A stretch of 28,947 nucleotides of DNA. Source: a virus. Under the pieces are notes generated by a model. The model saw only the letters and a list, made by a program, of their open reading frames with translations. It was not told where the DNA came from and searched no databases. The position numbers were made by a program, and so were the translations under genes. Location of the stretch: the IMG/VR virus record IMGVR_UViG_3300032224_000648, positions 1 to 28,947 of that record. One strand, 5' to 3'. This document shows positions 16,366-22,360 of this stretch, piece by piece (position 1 is the stretch's first letter; every line of letters begins with the position of its first letter).

Positions 16366-18471
16366 ATGCCATATATATTAAACAAAACAAATGGACAACA
16401 AATTTCTGTCGTTCAGGACGGTAGTATCAATTCTACTACTGCTGACTTAACATTTGTTGGAAAAAATTATTCAGGCTACGGGCAGGTAGTTAATGAAAAC
16501 TTCCTCCAGCTACTAGAAAATTTTGCAAGCCCGACAGGTCCATCAAAACCTGTGATAGGTGAATTATGGTATGATACTGCAAATAAGAAATTAAATGTAA
16601 ACACAAACGGAACAACATCTGGGTGGAAAAAACTAGCGTTAATTAATCCAGTAGAATCTTATTTTCCAATTGATCAAACTATTGGCGATTTCTACTGGGA
16701 TCGTTCTTTACAAAAACTTTATGTATATAATGGTACACAACATATATTAATCGGGCCTGTTGGCACCGGCAGTACACAAGCAAGCGGCGCTATCGTCGGT
16801 ACAATTACTTCTGATTCTGCTGTTAAGAATCCTGTATTGTTACAACAAGTCGCAGGAGATGTTCCTGCGTTAGTATCCGGCTTCAGTTTTGTAACAAACA
16901 GTCAAGATGGCCTTTATTCAAAATATCCAGCAGTAGGTGCTGGTATCACAGTTCGAGGCACTAATCGTATTGGTATATCGGGCGATTATTTGTTCTGGGG
17001 CACTTCAAGTAGCTCGCAAGGACTTGTAAGAAAAACAGAAAATTATAGTACAATACACACAGGTGATGACTACTTATTAAAATCAGAACTTGCAGGTATT
17101 GGCGGTGCAATCAATATTCAAGTAGATGAAGGTTTATATGTTGGTGTAAACAGAATTATTAAACTACATGTTACTGGTAATACTGTTGGTAATTTATCAA
17201 ACATTCAATCTACTAGATTTAATTTTAACGTTACTAAAAATAGCACGTTGACAGAAATATTCCATGTGGACGGTGGCGGCACGACTAACGCTATTCTTCC
17301 AAATTCATCAGCTTCAACAAATATCGGTTCAACTGGTGCCGGAAATTCATTCAATAAAACGTACTCAACTAATTTAATTTCTGCTACATTAACGGCCCCG
17401 GGAGCCACAGAACCTGTCACCCAACCGGCAAGTGGATATGGTGTTATTACAGGTAATTGGACAGTCAACGGACAATTTAGTGTTGCGTCGGGCGCATCTA
17501 TTGCGGCTACTACCTCAGGACTGGCAACAAATGCAGTTAACCTACAGAACGCAACAGCAGACGGATATATTCATGCAAAAACAGATGCATCAGTTAATTC
17601 TATTCTGCAATTAGACGGTGACGGCTATGCAAATGTACGCGGTATATCTGGGTCCAGCAGTCCTAAAATTAAAGGTACATGGACTCTAGATTCTGCGGCA
17701 TCGTTACAGGCAAGTAGTTTAAAAAATGCGGCAGGTGATGCATATATTGGGCCTACGGTATCTGGTGCCACTGATACAATAAAAAATACTATTGTTCAAC
17801 GAGATGGCGCAGGCGGCATAACCGGAGTTGCAATATATGGCGCAACTTTACAGTCTCCAAATTTACGAGCCGGCGCCGGAGCTTCTGATAACGGAACTGT
17901 ATACGGAAACTGGATATTAGGCACAAGTGCAAGTATGCAAGCATCTAGTCTAGCAGGAACTGGCGGATATTTTGCGGCCTCTACAGATGGAGCACAGGCA
18001 AACACTATCGTACAGCGAGACGCAAGTAAAAATGTTTATGTAAACGATTTACATTGTGCAGGGGATGCGTATGCTGGTACATTCCACGGAGTTGCAACCT
18101 CAGCATACTACGCTGACTTAGCAGAAAAATATACGTCAGACTCTGAATACGAAGCAGGCACAGTCTTAGTAATCGGTGGCGAAAAAGAAACTACAATTTG
18201 CGTTGATCGTGCTGTACTAAATTGGGCGGGAGTTGTTTCAACTAACCCAGCTCATTTAATGAATGACGGATTAGAAGGTGTTGCGATTGCACTGAGCGGT
18301 CGCTTACCATGTAAGGTAGTTGGACCTATCAAACGAGGTGATCTACTAGTTACTAGTTCAACACCCGGCCACGCAGAAACATACAGAGATGGAGATAGTA
18401 CACTAGCAGTAATCGGGAAAGCATTAGAAAATGCCCCACCCGGACCCGGAGTGATAGAGATTAAGGTCTAA
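16366..18471 (+). CDS. Tail fibre protein 4 of four paralogs, ADLAEKY-type C-terminal domain
   Basis: This 701-residue fibre starts one base after fibre 3, with GGAAG five bases before the ATG. It carries the shared N-terminal module: FVGKNYSGYG, NENFLQLLENFA, GELWYDT, GDFYWDRSLQKLYVYNG. The shaft repeats GxWxLxxxAxxQASSL and NTIVQRD-type units (for example at about 425-445, 475-490 and 545-560). The last ~120 residues (from about 580) form a distinct domain with YYADLAEKYTSDSEYEAG, GVVSTNPAHLMN, ALSGRLPCKVVGPIKRGDLL and VIGKALENAPPGPG. I recall this domain at C-termini of many aquatic phage fibres. It resembles intramolecular chaperone domains (Peptidase_G2-like), though self-cleavage cannot be judged here. 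It is the last gene of the + strand block and runs into a strong terminator. Confidence 0.87.
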   Translation: MPYILNKTNGQQISVVQDGSINSTTADLTFVGKNYSGYGQVVNENFLQLLENFASPTGPSKPVIGELWYDTANKKLNVNTNGTTSGWKKLALINPVESYFPIDQTIGDFYWDRSLQKLYVYNGTQHILIGPVGTGSTQASGAIVGTITSDSAVKNPVLLQQVAGDVPALVSGFSFVTNSQDGLYSKYPAVGAGITVRGTNRIGISGDYLFWGTSSSSQGLVRKTENYSTIHTGDDYLLKSELAGIGGAINIQVDEGLYVGVNRIIKLHVTGNTVGNLSNIQSTRFNFNVTKNSTLTEIFHVDGGGTTNAILPNSSASTNIGSTGAGNSFNKTYSTNLISATLTAPGATEPVTQPASGYGVITGNWTVNGQFSVASGASIAATTSGLATNAVNLQNATADGYIHAKTDASVNSILQLDGDGYANVRGISGSSSPKIKGTWTLDSAASLQASSLKNAAGDAYIGPTVSGATDTIKNTIVQRDGAGGITGVAIYGATLQSPNLRAGAGASDNGTVYGNWILGTSASMQASSLAGTGGYFAASTDGAQANTIVQRDASKNVYVNDLHCAGDAYAGTFHGVATSAYYADLAEKYTSDSEYEAGTVLVIGGEKETTICVDRAVLNWAGVVSTNPAHLMNDGLEGVAIALSGRLPCKVVGPIKRGDLLVTSSTPGHAETYRDGDSTLAVIGKALENAPPGPGVIEIKV

Positions 18472-18500
18472 AAAAAAGCCCCTTAATTGGGGCTTTTTTT
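18471..18500. terminator. Bidirectional intrinsic terminator between convergent blocks
   Basis: A perfect 12-bp stem (seven A, then GCCCC, pairing with GGGGC and seven T) has a 6-base TTAATT loop. Both flanks supply U-tracts, so it can stop transcription from either strand. It starts at the last base of the fibre 4 stop codon and ends inside the stop codon of the - strand gene, so one element serves both convergent operons. Confidence 0.95.
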
Positions 18501-19080
18501 ATGCTTCAGTTTTTGCTTTCTTTTTTGGGGGATCTATTGCATCTGCTTGTTTACGCAATGTCTGTGCTTGTTTGAATAAAGCATCAGCACGTGAGCGCAA
18601 TTCTGCAGGAGTAAGGTCTAAGCCACCAGTAGTATCTGCGGTACTTCCTGCTTTGCTAGTTGCTGTCTTTTTAGTAGCAACTGTCTTAGCTTCAGTTCCG
18701 TCTGTTACTGCCAGGTCTTCTAAAGCAATTCCTTTTTGTTCAGCGATCAAAAGATTTAGTTCATCTAATTGAATGTGATCGCCATTCAATTTTGGAGTAA
18801 CTACAACGTTTGAAGTAGGAACCTTCTTTAAATGACCGTTGGTATGTAAGAATGCTAACATATTACTACCATCGGCAAATTTGCGAACAGCTAATATATC
18901 AGCTAGCTCATTTGCTTGTTGTCCGCTTTCGCTTTCAACAACAGTCATTAAACCGTCATGATGCATATCGGACAGTCCTTGTGTACCAACTACTAAAGCA
19001 TTGGAAGGATCTCCAGGCAATGTGCGATATACAACGGCAATTCTTGCGCCGTTGTTTTTCATTTTACCAACGTGTTTCAT
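18499..19080 (-). CDS. Conserved T4-like phage protein, 193 aa
   Basis: I recall this as a conserved protein of T4-like cyanophages and relatives; no function is known to me. The N-terminal ~125 residues are a compact domain: MKHVGKMKNNGARIAVVYRT, LPGDPSNALVV, ESESGQQANELADILAVRKF, DGSNMLAFLHTNG, then LDELNLLIAEQKG. A low-complexity Thr/Ala/Lys linker (about 127-150) follows. The tail is a basic, helical LTPAELRSRADALFKQAQTL segment ending in a Lys-rich stretch, which suggests a nucleic-acid or partner-binding tail (inference). The ribosome binding site AAGGAG lies six bases before the ATG and directly follows the stop of the upstream 88-residue gene. It is the last gene of the - strand operon, before the shared terminator. 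Confidence 0.85.
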   Translation of the reverse strand: MKHVGKMKNNGARIAVVYRTLPGDPSNALVVGTQGLSDMHHDGLMTVVESESGQQANELADILAVRKFADGSNMLAFLHTNGHLKKVPTSNVVVTPKLNGDHIQLDELNLLIAEQKGIALEDLAVTDGTEAKTVATKKTATSKAGSTADTTGGLDLTPAELRSRADALFKQAQTLRKQADAIDPPKKKAKTEA

Positions 19081-19358: not shown

Positions 19359-19640
19359 TTAATATCTCCTATGTAAATGTGGACACGCTAATGTAAGCAT
19401 AGTTATCTCTCTAGAATCCTCAATACCTATTTCTTGGTTTTCTACAAGTTTGTTATTAGAGTCTAATTTAAGACTCTTTTTAATAGCAAACCTGCTGTCT
19501 AGGTTATACATAACCCAGCTTTCCAATGCAGTAGTATCGACCCCATTAATAGACAATTTGGTAAAATTGTCTGGTATATGATCTAACTTTCTTACACCTA
19601 ACGCATTAAGCGCATTAACTTGATTTCTAGCTAGTGCCAT
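19359..19640 (-). CDS. Hypothetical protein, 93 aa
   Basis: This is a soluble small protein with no recognised domain. Visible features are a helical N-terminus (MALARNQVNALNALGVRKLD), a middle DNFTKLSINGVDTTALESWV, a charged segment, and a C-terminus LACPHLHRRY with one Cys and two His. It lies 12 bases downstream of the VWA-peptidase gene and one base upstream of the 88-residue gene, so it belongs to the same operon. The ribosome binding site is weak (AGG about seven bases before the ATG). A TATAAATA box lies just upstream (see separate entry). Confidence 0.75.
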   Translation of the reverse strand: MALARNQVNALNALGVRKLDHIPDNFTKLSINGVDTTALESWVMYNLDSRFAIKKSLKLDSNNKLVENQEIGIEDSREITMLTLACPHLHRRY

Positions 19641-19652
19641 AATGTACCTATT

Positions 19653-20915
19653 TTATTTATAGTAGGCCACATTACCGAAGGGTGGGATTATGGAATCGTT
19701 TCCGTGGATGATAAACAGGGTATCACAGTAATCTTCGTCACCCCAGCTACCGCACGGATATCCGTCTGTAAACATGATAAATTTCTTAGGAATAAGATCT
19801 TCAGTTTTCATGAATTCCCAGTTAGCATCAAAATCAGTACCACCACCGCCTTCACATTTATAATCGTGAATATCGTCCGCAGTATCACCGGTAAAAGACT
19901 GGTAGTTATAAATGCTAGTGTCAAAACACCAAATATCTAATTTAAAGTCTTTGTATTCTTCCATGATACCTTTAACTTCGCTGATAAAGTCATTGGCCAT
20001 TTCGTCACTAATACTACCACTCATGTCAATAGCACATGACACGTCGATAGTTTCTTCGTTCATTAATCCGGGCAATACTGCACCGCACATTTGACTTTTA
20101 CGATTCGGGCGACTAAAACTAAAATTGTTTTTAATAATGCTTTGAATTTGCATACGCAACAACTGACGCCAGTCCATCTTTGGCTCTGTAAGATCTTTAA
20201 TCATACGAGCAATACCTGCAGGAACACGACCGGCACCCGCGGCTTGTGCGGCACTGATCATTGCTTCTTTAATTTCGTCACGGATTTTTTTCTTATCTTC
20301 TTCAGACAACTTTGGACGACCACTGCCCTTGCCATCTTTACCTTCTTTGTCTCCGTCGCCTTCGCCGTCTTGTTCGTCATCGCCGTCCAAGTGATCGTCA
20401 AGCAATTCGCCAAGTTGGCTCAAATCAATCTTAATTGCTTTTTCTTCTAAGTCTGCGTAAATCTTTTCGTAACTCCAACCACGATATTTGTCGTCTTGGA
20501 AAATTTTGATCATGTGTGGCACATCACCAATGCGTTCATCTTTAAGAATTTGATTAGCGGCATAGTCTGCCGCAATATTTGACAACTGGGGATCACGCTC
20601 ATTACGACGGCCCATATGGTCGAACACGTTATGTAGAACTTCGTGCGCAAAACCAAATTCGGATTCACGTGGAGTAAGTTGATCTACAAAGCCTACATTG
20701 TAATAAAAATTACGACCATCTGTAGCAAGAGTTGAACACCAGTTACTTGCATCAATTAATTTCATGCGAGTAGCTAGGTTACCAAAAAACGGATGTTTAA
20801 GCAAAAGACCAACACGGGCAGTAGTTAATTTTTCAATTACTTTATTCTTTTCCGCATCAGTATAGACACGAGTTTTGTCTACTTTTTTAGTTTTTTCTTG
20901 CTTCATCACTGCCAT
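19653..20915 (-). CDS. VWA-domain protein with N-terminal HExxH metallopeptidase-like domain
   Basis: This 420-residue protein has two domains. The N-terminal half (about 20-155) resembles the DUF2201 metallopeptidase domain: HEVLHNVFDH at 91-100 gives HExxH plus a further His, and NIAADYAAN (Asp117) is the likely third metal-ligand region. An acidic Asp/Glu/Gly linker covers about 170-200. The C-terminal half is a VWA domain with an intact MIDAS metal site: DMSGS (297-301), GGGGTDF (Thr360) and FTDG (Asp384). Such proteins usually work with a MoxR-type AAA+ ATPase, and one is encoded just upstream (21188-22273). Together they may remodel or cut a protein complex; the target is unknown. A consensus promoter and GGAG seven bases before the ATG precede it, so strong expression is likely. 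Confidence 0.9.
   Translation of the reverse strand: MAVMKQEKTKKVDKTRVYTDAEKNKVIEKLTTARVGLLLKHPFFGNLATRMKLIDASNWCSTLATDGRNFYYNVGFVDQLTPRESEFGFAHEVLHNVFDHMGRRNERDPQLSNIAADYAANQILKDERIGDVPHMIKIFQDDKYRGWSYEKIYADLEEKAIKIDLSQLGELLDDHLDGDDEQDGEGDGDKEGKDGKGSGRPKLSEEDKKKIRDEIKEAMISAAQAAGAGRVPAGIARMIKDLTEPKMDWRQLLRMQIQSIIKNNFSFSRPNRKSQMCGAVLPGLMNEETIDVSCAIDMSGSISDEMANDFISEVKGIMEEYKDFKLDIWCFDTSIYNYQSFTGDTADDIHDYKCEGGGGTDFDANWEFMKTEDLIPKKFIMFTDGYPCGSWGDEDYCDTLFIIHGNDSIIPPFGNVAYYK
19654..19661 (-). promoter_or_regulatory. Possible T4-type late promoter box TATAAATA
   Basis: The - strand reads TATAAATA, an exact match to the T4 late promoter core. It overlaps the last codons (Tyr, Lys, stop) of the VWA-peptidase gene and lies about 14 bases before the 93-residue gene. 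If used, the transcript would start near 19648, leaving only about eight bases before the first ATG and cutting into its weak AGG. It would therefore serve the 88- and 193-residue genes better. A chance match at a Tyr-Lys-stop end cannot be excluded. Confidence 0.35.
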
Positions 20916-20947
20916 AATTTAACTCCGTTGTTTGACTGTATGTATAT

Positions 20948-20976
20948 ATTATATATTCTTTTTACCAACTTGTCAA
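20948..20976 (-). promoter_or_regulatory. Consensus sigma70 promoter for the VWA-peptidase gene
   Basis: The - strand reads TTGACA (20976-20971), exactly 17 bases, then TATAAT (20953-20948). This is a perfect match to the bacterial sigma70 consensus. Transcription would start near 20941, giving a leader of about 25 bases with GGAG before the ATG at 20915. The -35 box overlaps the stop codon of the 55-residue gene. Strong host-type promoters are typical of early genes in T4-like phages. Confidence 0.88.
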
Positions 20977-21140
20977 TAGTTTTCTTTGACAAAATAGAAC
21001 TCAGGCTTAGGATACTTTTCCAAAAGTTCTTTTTCTTTAATGAACTCATTCATTTTGGGTGCCGTAAAAAACATCTGATGAAATACGGGTTTGTGTGTTG
21101 TTGTTTCTACAATACTAAGGTACCAAGATTTTACAGCCAT
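20973..21140 (-). CDS. Small hypothetical protein, 55 aa
   Basis: A short gene sits between the MoxR terminator and the VWA promoter. It reads MAVKSWYLSIVETTTHKPVF, then HQMFFTAPKMNEFIKEKELL, then a C-terminal EKYPKPEFYFVKENY. It starts with ATG, has AAGGA eight bases upstream, and ends in TGA. The balanced, protein-like composition supports a real gene. The pattern of short beta strands and one helix suggests a small folded protein; no family is recognised. No promoter is seen between it and the terminator, so it would depend on read-through from the MoxR gene. Confidence 0.7.
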   Translation of the reverse strand: MAVKSWYLSIVETTTHKPVFHQMFFTAPKMNEFIKEKELLEKYPKPEFYFVKENY

Positions 21141-21164
21141 TTTATTTTTCCTTTATTTTAAATG

Positions 21165-21188
21165 AAAAAAGCCCCGTAGGGCTTTTTT
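21165..21188 (-). terminator. Intrinsic terminator after the MoxR ATPase gene
   Basis: A perfect 10-bp stem has a CGTA loop, with the arms AAAAAAGCCC and GGGCTTTTTT and a T-tract in both directions. On the - strand it begins in the MoxR stop codon. It would limit transcription of the 55-residue gene to read-through. Confidence 0.9.
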
Positions 21189-22273
21189 TAGTTCTCCATT
21201 GCAACCATTACGTATTTGCCGTAGTTAGTATGGAACCGATCAAAGTTCTTCAACTTACTTGCGTCAAACGGTAGTTGGTAGTTTGTGAGCGCAACTTTGG
21301 AACCCATTACAACTAATTCGGTTGGGAAATTATCCATCATAAATCCGAAGAAGTTATCTGCCATTTCATTCCAGTTCTTAGCTTTCTTTTCCCAAGAACT
21401 TTGGAGTTCGTAGCACATACTAATAGTCAAAGAGTACATCGCTGAGATCTCTTTGACATCCATCTTTTTAATCTTACCATCAAGGATGTCTGAAGGGTTA
21501 GGCATCTGTTTGGCAATCTTGCGGTGCGCCATAAACTTAACAGCAAGACCTTCACCAATTGCACCAGCAACCAAGTCAGTCAACGTGTTTTCTGGCAAAT
21601 CGTCATCACCTAACAAGTCGCTTACGAATGACCAGCTACGTGGAGTAGCAAATGAGCGTGAGCTAGATTTTGGATCATAGTCATACAAGTCTTGTTTAGC
21701 AAAGCCGATGTAACCAACAACTTGCTCGTGCTGTTTGTTTTTAACAGCCCATTCTTGCCAGTCGTCGAAGCTAGGCTTCAATTCCAAGTGCAGGAAACGA
21801 TTAGCCAACGGAGCAGGCATACGATAAGTTACACCCTTATCACCTTCGCGGTTACCAGCGGCAACAATACTAACGCCTTTTGGCAAATGATATGTACCAA
21901 CACGGCGGTTCAAAATAAGTTGATAGGCCGCGGCCTGTGTAGCAGGAGCCGCAGAATTAAGTTCGTCTAAGAACAGAACAGCAGTAGATTCTGGATCACT
22001 TGGCAACTCAATCGGAGGAGCCCAAGTCATTGTGTTTGACTGTACGTTGTAATAAGGAATACCTTTAATATCAGTAGGTTCCCAAAGACTCAAACGTACA
22101 TCGATAACTTCACGATCTTGCTCTGCCGCAATCTGGTGAATAATATCTGACTTGCCAATGCCCGGAGGGCCCCACATGAATACTGGGCGACCAACTTTAA
22201 AGCACTTGCGAATTGCCGCTTTTGCTTCGTTAGGCGATTGTGTACGGTTGGTACTAACTTCTGCTTTTGCCAT
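21188..22273 (-). CDS. MoxR-type AAA+ ATPase
   Basis: This 361-residue ATPase has a Walker A motif GPPGIGKS at 35-42, Walker B VLFLDE ending at Asp103-Glu104, sensor 1 in AAGNREGDKG (Asn141), and a likely arginine finger in APLANRF (Arg159). The order and the LANRF motif fit the MoxR/CbbQ branch. Proteins of this branch act as ring chaperones with a VWA-domain partner, and that partner lies just downstream (19653-20915). The C-terminal ~150 residues form a helical lid without recognised motifs. It has its own promoter, GAGGAA five bases before the ATG, and a terminator at its stop. Homologous pairs are, as I recall, carried by T4-like cyanophages, but their role in infection is not known to me. 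Confidence 0.92.
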   Translation of the reverse strand: MAKAEVSTNRTQSPNEAKAAIRKCFKVGRPVFMWGPPGIGKSDIIHQIAAEQDREVIDVRLSLWEPTDIKGIPYYNVQSNTMTWAPPIELPSDPESTAVLFLDELNSAAPATQAAAYQLILNRRVGTYHLPKGVSIVAAGNREGDKGVTYRMPAPLANRFLHLELKPSFDDWQEWAVKNKQHEQVVGYIGFAKQDLYDYDPKSSSRSFATPRSWSFVSDLLGDDDLPENTLTDLVAGAIGEGLAVKFMAHRKIAKQMPNPSDILDGKIKKMDVKEISAMYSLTISMCYELQSSWEKKAKNWNEMADNFFGFMMDNFPTELVVMGSKVALTNYQLPFDASKLKNFDRFHTNYGKYVMVAMEN

Positions 22274-22331: not shown

Positions 22332-22360
22332 AGTATAACGTCAGTAGACACAAAAGTCAA
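22332..22360 (-). promoter_or_regulatory. Sigma70-like promoter for the MoxR ATPase gene
   Basis: The - strand reads TTGACT (22360-22355), 17 bases, then TATACT (22337-22332), with one mismatch to consensus in each box. Transcription would start near 22325, giving a leader of about 50 bases before the ATG at 22273. The 117-base gap between genes (22274-22390) holds nothing else I recognise. Confidence 0.78.

Follow-up and report, generated by a model that had tools for sequence, protein, structure and literature searches.

The window analysed here is a 28,947-base IMG/VR record (IMGVR_UViG_3300032224_000648) from an uncultured giant bacteriophage, and its minus strand carries two open reading frames (ORFs), one encoding a MoxR-type AAA+ ATPase and the other a protein that joins a metallopeptidase-like domain to a VWA domain. 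A reading made from the sequence alone (the sequence-only reading) had placed both ORFs correctly and had taken their products for a ring-chaperone pair of the MoxR–VWA type. The two genes and the elements recognized in their products are listed below, with counts referring to the sequences that cover each position in the alignments of relatives, and with structural assignments taken from AlphaFold2 (AF2) models and their predicted local distance difference test (pLDDT) scores.

21188–22273, minus strand: MoxR-type AAA+ ATPase, 361 residues (Pfam AAA_3, AAA_5 and AAA; phrog_1297 'ATPase', E=3e-102; AF2 pLDDT 86.5)
22148–22171, minus strand: MoxR Walker A, residues 35–42, GPPGIGKS (K41 in 210/210)
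22019–22063, minus strand: MoxR helix-2-insert β-hairpin, residues 71–85, strands 72–76 and 81–85 (DSSP of the AF2 model; conservation)
21962–21967, minus strand: MoxR Walker B, D103-E104 (alignment of relatives)
21797–21799, minus strand: MoxR arginine finger, R159 (211/211)
19653–20915, minus strand: DUF2201_N metallopeptidase-like domain, linker and C-terminal VWA domain, 420 residues (Pfam PF13203 and PF09967; phrog_1314, E=7.8e-107; AF2 pLDDT 77.5)
20631–20645, minus strand: HEVLH, residues 91–95, on predicted helix 82–97 (H91 and H95 in 220/220, E92 in 218/220; AF2 helix placement)
20565–20567, minus strand: D117, proposed third metal ligand, on predicted helix 109–126 (220/220; AF2 helix placement)
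20301–20435, minus strand: acidic linker, residues 161–205, of low confidence and weakly conserved (pLDDT <50 at 178–198)
20049–20219, minus strand: candidate NorD-type finger, residues 233–289, immediately ahead of VWA strand 1
20013–20027, minus strand: metal ion-dependent adhesion site (MIDAS) motif DMSGS, residues 297–301 (D297, S299 and S301 in 214/214)
19836–19838, minus strand: MIDAS T360 (214/214)
19764–19766, minus strand: MIDAS D384 (212/212)

The predicted fold of the 361-residue protein, a MoxR-type AAA+ ATPase, lies nearest to those of NorQ and CbbQ. Walker A, Walker B, sensor 1, the arginine finger and sensor 2 are all present, and the model places a helix-2-insert hairpin near the pore loop, as expected of a clade 7 MoxR protein; this hairpin is the defining feature of AAA+ clade 7 (PMC13036017). 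No substitutions occur at K41, sensor-1 N141 or R159 in the alignment, and Walker B and sensor 2 differ only in isolated sequences. The top PDB matches of the AF2 model in a Foldseek search are the NorQ chains of NorQ–NorD complexes together with CbbQ2, which agrees with the ring-chaperone type proposed by the sequence-only reading.

The 420-residue protein matches DUF2201_N (PF13203) at E=1.7e-43, with 149.6 bits against a curated cut-off of 23.2, and the VWA-like DUF2201 (PF09967) at E=2.9e-16, with 60.1 bits against a cut-off of 26.4. Its C-terminal domain is a VWA fold with a complete MIDAS (DxSxS-T-D) and superimposes on its matches with Z up to 12.9 and a root mean square deviation of 2.4 over 135 residues. 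Searches with the whole model using Foldseek and VIA returned VWA folds only, and as these fill the match lists the absence of the N-terminal domain from them is uninformative. Judged from its motifs and predicted helices, the N-terminal domain would be a zincin, with an HExxH helix and a third, acidic ligand on the following helix as a zincin would require. Weak profile matches of residues 51–108 to solved structures (MJ1213, E=0.009; an M48 peptidase, E=0.35) were not used as proof. The linker contains 15 acidic and 6 basic residues and has a mean conservation of 0.50, compared with 0.70 in the domains. Conservation of the segment 233–289 is also 0.70, equal to that of the VWA domain, and model confidence is 53–60 at residues 261–290; by its position this segment is a candidate analogue of the NorD finger. 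The alignment of the VWA protein holds 221 rows, including 15 named references, some of which are duplicated as loci, and the two exceptions at E92 are in fact one phage, Atu_ph07, counted twice. Atu_ph07 (L085, 6001–7218) carries a natural E-to-Q replacement in the HExxH motif (HQILH), and a glycine there replaces the otherwise constant N113.

In public records the VWA half of the pair is filed as an HNH endonuclease, a misnaming found in phrog_1314 and in many RefSeq entries (for example NC_008720 gp25 and NC_071039 gp144). Only DUF2201_N and DUF2201, and no HNH domain, were found by Pfam at E values up to 0.1, and the label was rejected. A note in the RaK2 record takes the name back to a Roseovarius phage annotation, and the label appears to have spread from this one early annotation. 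The profile matches to AAA_3/AAA_5/AAA, DUF2201_N and DUF2201 uphold the peptidase-like domain that the sequence-only reading had assigned to the VWA partner, and the ATPase motifs, HExxH and MIDAS residues that it had called intact are all present and conserved among relatives.

Comparison with five close relatives gave ratios of nonsynonymous to synonymous substitution rates (dN/dS) of 0.06–0.13 for both genes, the mark of purifying selection, and together with the conserved motifs these ratios indicate that both proteins are kept functional, with conservation well above any chance level. All 231 IMG/VR loci with both genes have MoxR upstream of the VWA gene on the same strand, mostly with a gap of <100 nt (some contigs were fetched twice, and gaps were measured between open frames). 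Nine loci appeared to hold a single gene, but as every one of them ends at a contig edge, where some hold a partial partner, they were ruled out as true singles. A radical-SAM-like gene is inserted immediately behind MoxR in one of these nine (L116, 2930–4004). The 23 reference phages comprised Schitoviridae, Vequintavirinae, RaK2-like phages, PA5oct, Atu_ph07/Phosso, Bacillus phage G, Thermus phage phiFa, Planktothrix phage and others; MoxR was found in 23/23 and DUF2201_N in 22/23, the exception being Staphylococcus phage UFV_DC4, and two of the 22 DUF2201_N matches fall below the Pfam cut-off. Frequent loss of one gene was not seen in either set, in accord with the two-gene system that had been predicted. 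The genes lie some kilobases apart on opposite strands in SSE121 and APECc02, and the MoxR and DUF2201_N matches in LR756504, a 636-kb uncultured record, are far apart. MoxR and the VWA gene of PA5oct (L002, 7428–8924) are separated by three small genes together with one annotated as a homing endonuclease. The two proteins match 753 and 824 phage records, respectively, and the pair is common to podovirus and myovirus groups with very different hosts. No cellular relatives were found in a genome-contig scan made with one protein query, the reach of which is limited to close relatives.

Group I introns apparently interrupt MoxR in the Vibrio N4-like phages JA-1 and pVco-5. The gene is split in JA-1 (L086, 1474–4269), with HNH ORFs annotated between the exons and a match to Rfam RF00028 of 52.2 bits, and it is also split in pVco-5 (L275, 1704–3708), where the RF00028 match is sub-threshold. 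Homing elements are frequently located in essential genes.

The sequence-only reading had presented the pair as an unnoticed system, which it is not: the same MoxR and metallopeptidase-VWA pair was described in 2021 in group 2.2 jumbo phages, with Atu_ph07 cited (Iyer et al. 2021, PMC7824862), and N4 gp24/gp25 are among the listed core genes of N4-like phages (PMC4193335). The Atu_ph07 pair (ASV44729.1 and ASV44728.2) agrees with that of the window in its two genes, their order and the N-terminal metallopeptidase fusion, and its proteins align over 91–93% of each window protein. Atu_ph07 has HQILH in place of HExxH, whereas the window lineage has extra DNA, a 55-residue ORF and separate promoters between the genes. 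Of all matches in the reference set, those of N4 (Schitoviridae) are the best, gp24 for phrog_1297 and gp25 for DUF2201_N, and the two genes follow the same order as in the window; N4 differs in encoding its own RNA polymerases and in the ~27–31% identity of its proteins to those of the window.

Among cellular systems the closest parallel is with NorQ–NorD, which likewise combines a MoxR ring ATPase with a VWA/MIDAS adaptor made up of an N-domain, a linker and a pre-VWA segment. The parts of NorD are, in order, an N-domain, a linker that is disordered, a finger reaching into the pore of NorQ, and a MIDAS-bearing VWA domain; in NorQD, hydrolysis of ATP causes the VWA domain to twist and the linker to be stretched (PMC9976466, PMC13036017). 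The predicted order of the phage adaptor is that of NorD, with the putative zincin, the acidic linker 161–205, the conserved segment 233–289 and the VWA domain following one another, except that the zincin (DUF2201_N) stands in place of the NorD N-domain. There are no nor genes in the window, and the NorQ motif GRXLL/IXXXXT (PMC13036017) is missing, the corresponding window sequence being GIPYYNVQSNT, in which only G and P are family-conserved. Because this motif is missing we do not file the pair as a NorQD member and propose only that it works like one. The rubisco activase CbbQ–CbbO is also an AAA+/VWA pair, and CbbQ2 is among the top fold matches, but its adaptor has a different N-domain and the phage pair has no rubisco-linked context. 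RavA–ViaA of E. coli shares the AAA+/VWA two-gene arrangement and differs in that the DUF2201_N domain of the phage adaptor has no match in the E. coli control search. The p618/p892 proteins of Acidianus two-tailed virus are a viral MoxR–VWA pair, but they have no peptidase domain (PMC7824862) and belong to an unrelated virus.

With NorQ and CbbQ as the nearest folds, the pair might insert metal into a metalloenzyme of the phage or of the host, as happens when NorQD acts on nitric oxide reductase, in which case the HExxH motif would handle or deliver metal and not cut peptides. The stricter retention of H91, H95 and D117 than of the catalytic E92, which is replaced in Atu_ph07, would suit such a function. 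The presence of E92 in 218/220 sequences is nevertheless a better fit to catalysis than to metal carriage, and no metalloenzyme gene consistently accompanies the pair in the loci inspected, so that we consider metal insertion improbable.

The expression class of the pair was judged from the following elements of the window.

22332–22360, minus strand: sigma-70-type promoter of MoxR, TTGACT-17-TATACT (10/12)
20948–20976, minus strand: consensus sigma-70 promoter of the VWA gene, TTGACA-17-TATAAT (12/12)
19654–19661, minus strand: TATAAATA, T4-late-type motif overlapping the VWA stop, 13 nt ahead of the next gene and marking the 3' boundary

The MoxR promoter scores 10–12/12 in 74/74 close relatives, while ~5% of shuffled upstream regions reach 10. 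It is chiefly where extra DNA separates the two genes that the VWA gene has a strong promoter of its own, and other lineages have a ~80-nt gap with a weaker site; the early-type promoters that the sequence-only reading had noted are upheld and recur among relatives. Perfect sigma-70 sites form a genuine class in these genomes: they number 6–27 per record, against 0–1 in the reversed control (eight records of 130–330 kb), and are often densely clustered. RaK2 and UB have a perfect sigma-70 site at MoxR, and the MoxR gene of CBB has a TGAAACG-type promoter, a class with 21 members in 378 kb. In CBB this class is reported mainly ahead of a region where DNA-synthesis genes abound, and the ATAAATA class ahead of structural genes (PMC5259590); ATAAATA motifs are found at some structural neighbours of the pair in the RaK2, UB and CBB loci. 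N4 gp24/25 are middle genes (PMC4193335). Going by these motifs, the pair looks early or middle in several lineages, even inside structural clusters.

The T4-late-type motif TATAAATA was not found upstream of MoxR in any of 148 close and 84 distant loci. At the VWA stop it is present in 117/137 close relatives (homologous sites in L004–L171), with 0 on the opposite strand, and its role may be that of a late promoter at a boundary between early and late genes. The form TATAAATAA is used in 117 of ~124 genes ending in Tyr-Lys, well above codon usage. As a late promoter for the lineage at large the motif is suggestive only: in one relative 9/14 sites precede an ORF, compared with 27% in permuted controls, and it is not abundant. 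A TATAMTATATACATA box downstream of both promoters was considered as a phage-specific promoter and rejected, since only the two promoter copies are perfect in the window and relatives vary.

Strong host-type promoters that resemble those densely clustered elsewhere in related genomes might also be expected of a counter-defence or host-takeover module directed at a host complex. Typical counter-defence genes are patchy and fast-evolving, whereas this is a conserved core pair in hundreds of phages of diverse hosts, and we regard such a module as improbable. PADLOC returned only generic AAA matches, which also speaks against this function, and membership of the pair in a defence system was rejected on the same result.

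The explanation that we favour, with a probability of about 0.5, is that the pair forms a NorQD-like remodelling machine, expressed early or in the middle of infection, whose adaptor bears a zincin and whose substrate is a complex inside the cell. The two genes would together make one machine, in which a MoxR AAA+ hexamer drives the VWA adaptor in the manner of NorQ–NorD, possibly with the candidate finger inserted in the pore. The adaptor MIDAS would hold a target protein, which would be twisted or stretched through ATP hydrolysis, and the putative zincin (HExxH...D), borne on the flexible acidic linker and presumed to bind metal, would help to remodel the target and possibly clip it. Made early or mid-infection from host-type promoters, the machine would work inside the cell, where its target would most likely be a host complex or one that the phage needs to replicate or transcribe its DNA, and not late virion proteins alone. 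The neighbours of the pair, judged by eye, are frequently DNA polymerase, helicase, RNA polymerase or nucleotide genes, and these speak for such a target. Of the two functions suggested by the sequence-only reading, the reshaping of an intracellular complex is the one that fits early/middle promoters better, and virion processing finds little support.

A number of observations weigh against an early or middle intracellular machine. A recognisable sigma-70 site precedes MoxR in only 31/84 distant loci, PA5oct and Atu_ph07 have no clear promoter site at MoxR, and the promoter class, and with it the expression timing, is deduced from motifs. The T4 assembly chaperones gp31 and gp57A are also made early, so that early promoters are compatible with an assembly role. 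The HQxxH of Atu_ph07 implies that proteolysis is not needed in every phage. RaK2-like phages hold the pair between structural genes and thymidylate synthase. Finally, MoxR has been detected with virions: phAPEC6 gp265c, an 'ATPase' of 49.52 kDa, is represented by 6 peptides in virion preparations (PMC7247149), and PA5oct has an electrospray ionization tandem mass spectrometry note on MoxR and none on the VWA protein. The phAPEC6 protein is taken to be the MoxR orthologue by its mass (49.5 kDa in UB) and by the adjoining thymidylate synthase, which is 35.51 kDa in both phages.

These detections and structural neighbours, along with the opposite-strand tail-fibre genes that the pair adjoins in the window, count in favour of the published proposal, made by analogy with Acidianus two-tailed virus, of a function in virion assembly and processing (Iyer et al. 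2021, PMC7824862), in which the pair would act as an assembly chaperone and a maturation protease, the metallopeptidase cleaving structural proteins. Thymidylate synthase (phAPEC6) and exonuclease (PA5oct) were also detected, and for this reason the MoxR found in virion preparations is likely to be carry-over. The metallopeptidase-VWA protein is in neither of the two virion tables checked, those of phAPEC6 and CBB: gp264 is unmentioned throughout the phAPEC6 virion paper (PMC7247149), and between CBB_214 and CBB_224 the CBB table contains neither CBB_216 (MoxR) nor CBB_217 (VWA). The promoter motifs are of the early/middle and not the late class, N4 gp24/25 are middle genes, and the pair is common to phages whose virions are unrelated, the N4 group of podoviruses and jumbo myoviruses. 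On balance we think a virion function unlikely, though deserving of serious consideration. Beyond the 2021 description, we observe near-perfect pairing and a wider range that takes in N4-like, rV5-like, Bacillus G and Thermus phages; the other additions are the loss of the catalytic Glu in the cited example Atu_ph07, the assignment of the promoters to an early/middle class, the comparison with virion proteomes and the evidence of group I introns in MoxR. Taken together these additions argue against a purely late virion role.

A more specific form of the intracellular machine would be a distinct kind of ATP-driven protease, with the peptidase mounted on a VWA adaptor and twisted by the ring, cutting thereby being tied to remodelling of the NorQD type, made early or mid-infection in hundreds of unrelated phages and acting at a step other than virion assembly. 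In ClpXP, Lon and FtsH, by contrast, a peptidase chamber lies under the ring. We put this forward as a speculative and rather unlikely proposal; if true, adaptor-borne proteolysis would bring MoxR chaperones together with a novel means by which AAA+ motors and peptidases are coupled. Whatever its function, the pair ranks with the more widely retained of the uncharacterised gene pairs in large phages and N4-like phages, the laboratory phage N4 included. Its strict pairing, its promoter class and the comparison with virion proteomes make a testable question of the sole published hypothesis, that of late assembly and processing of the virion.

The window phage is a jumbo phage of the PA5oct/Atu_ph07/RaK2 type, and the earlier label 'T4-like' applies to it in a broad sense only. 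The closest named relatives of its pair are found in Sinorhizobium phage Phosso, the PA5oct group and Agrobacterium phage Atu_ph07, and megablast gave no match of the region to known phages. The plus strand up to 18471 carries tail-fibre and baseplate-type genes, and the minus strand with the pair carries small unknown genes, a 5'-3' exonuclease, a 2-oxoglutarate-Fe(II) oxygenase, a QueE-like gene and a nucleotidyltransferase. A sub-threshold Rfam match to sraL (27.7 versus 39 bits) at 18469–18560 on the minus strand, close to the convergent 3' ends, is probably due to chance. The remaining features around the pair are as follows.

19359–19640: next gene downstream of the VWA gene
20973–21140, minus strand: 55-residue ORF between the MoxR and VWA genes (tblastn)
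21164–21187, minus strand: terminator-like hairpin, AAAAAGCCCC TAC GGGGCTTTTTT, immediately past the MoxR stop (read from the sequence)

The hairpin was seen by eye in the sequence and was not among the results of the scan that gave the promoters. Both genes of what had been called a compact two-gene system are real, but the small ORF and the hairpin stand between them. The 55-residue ORF is absent from most of 80 close relatives and is 38–93% identical in the minority in which tblastn found it. It is accompanied by the strong separate VWA promoter.

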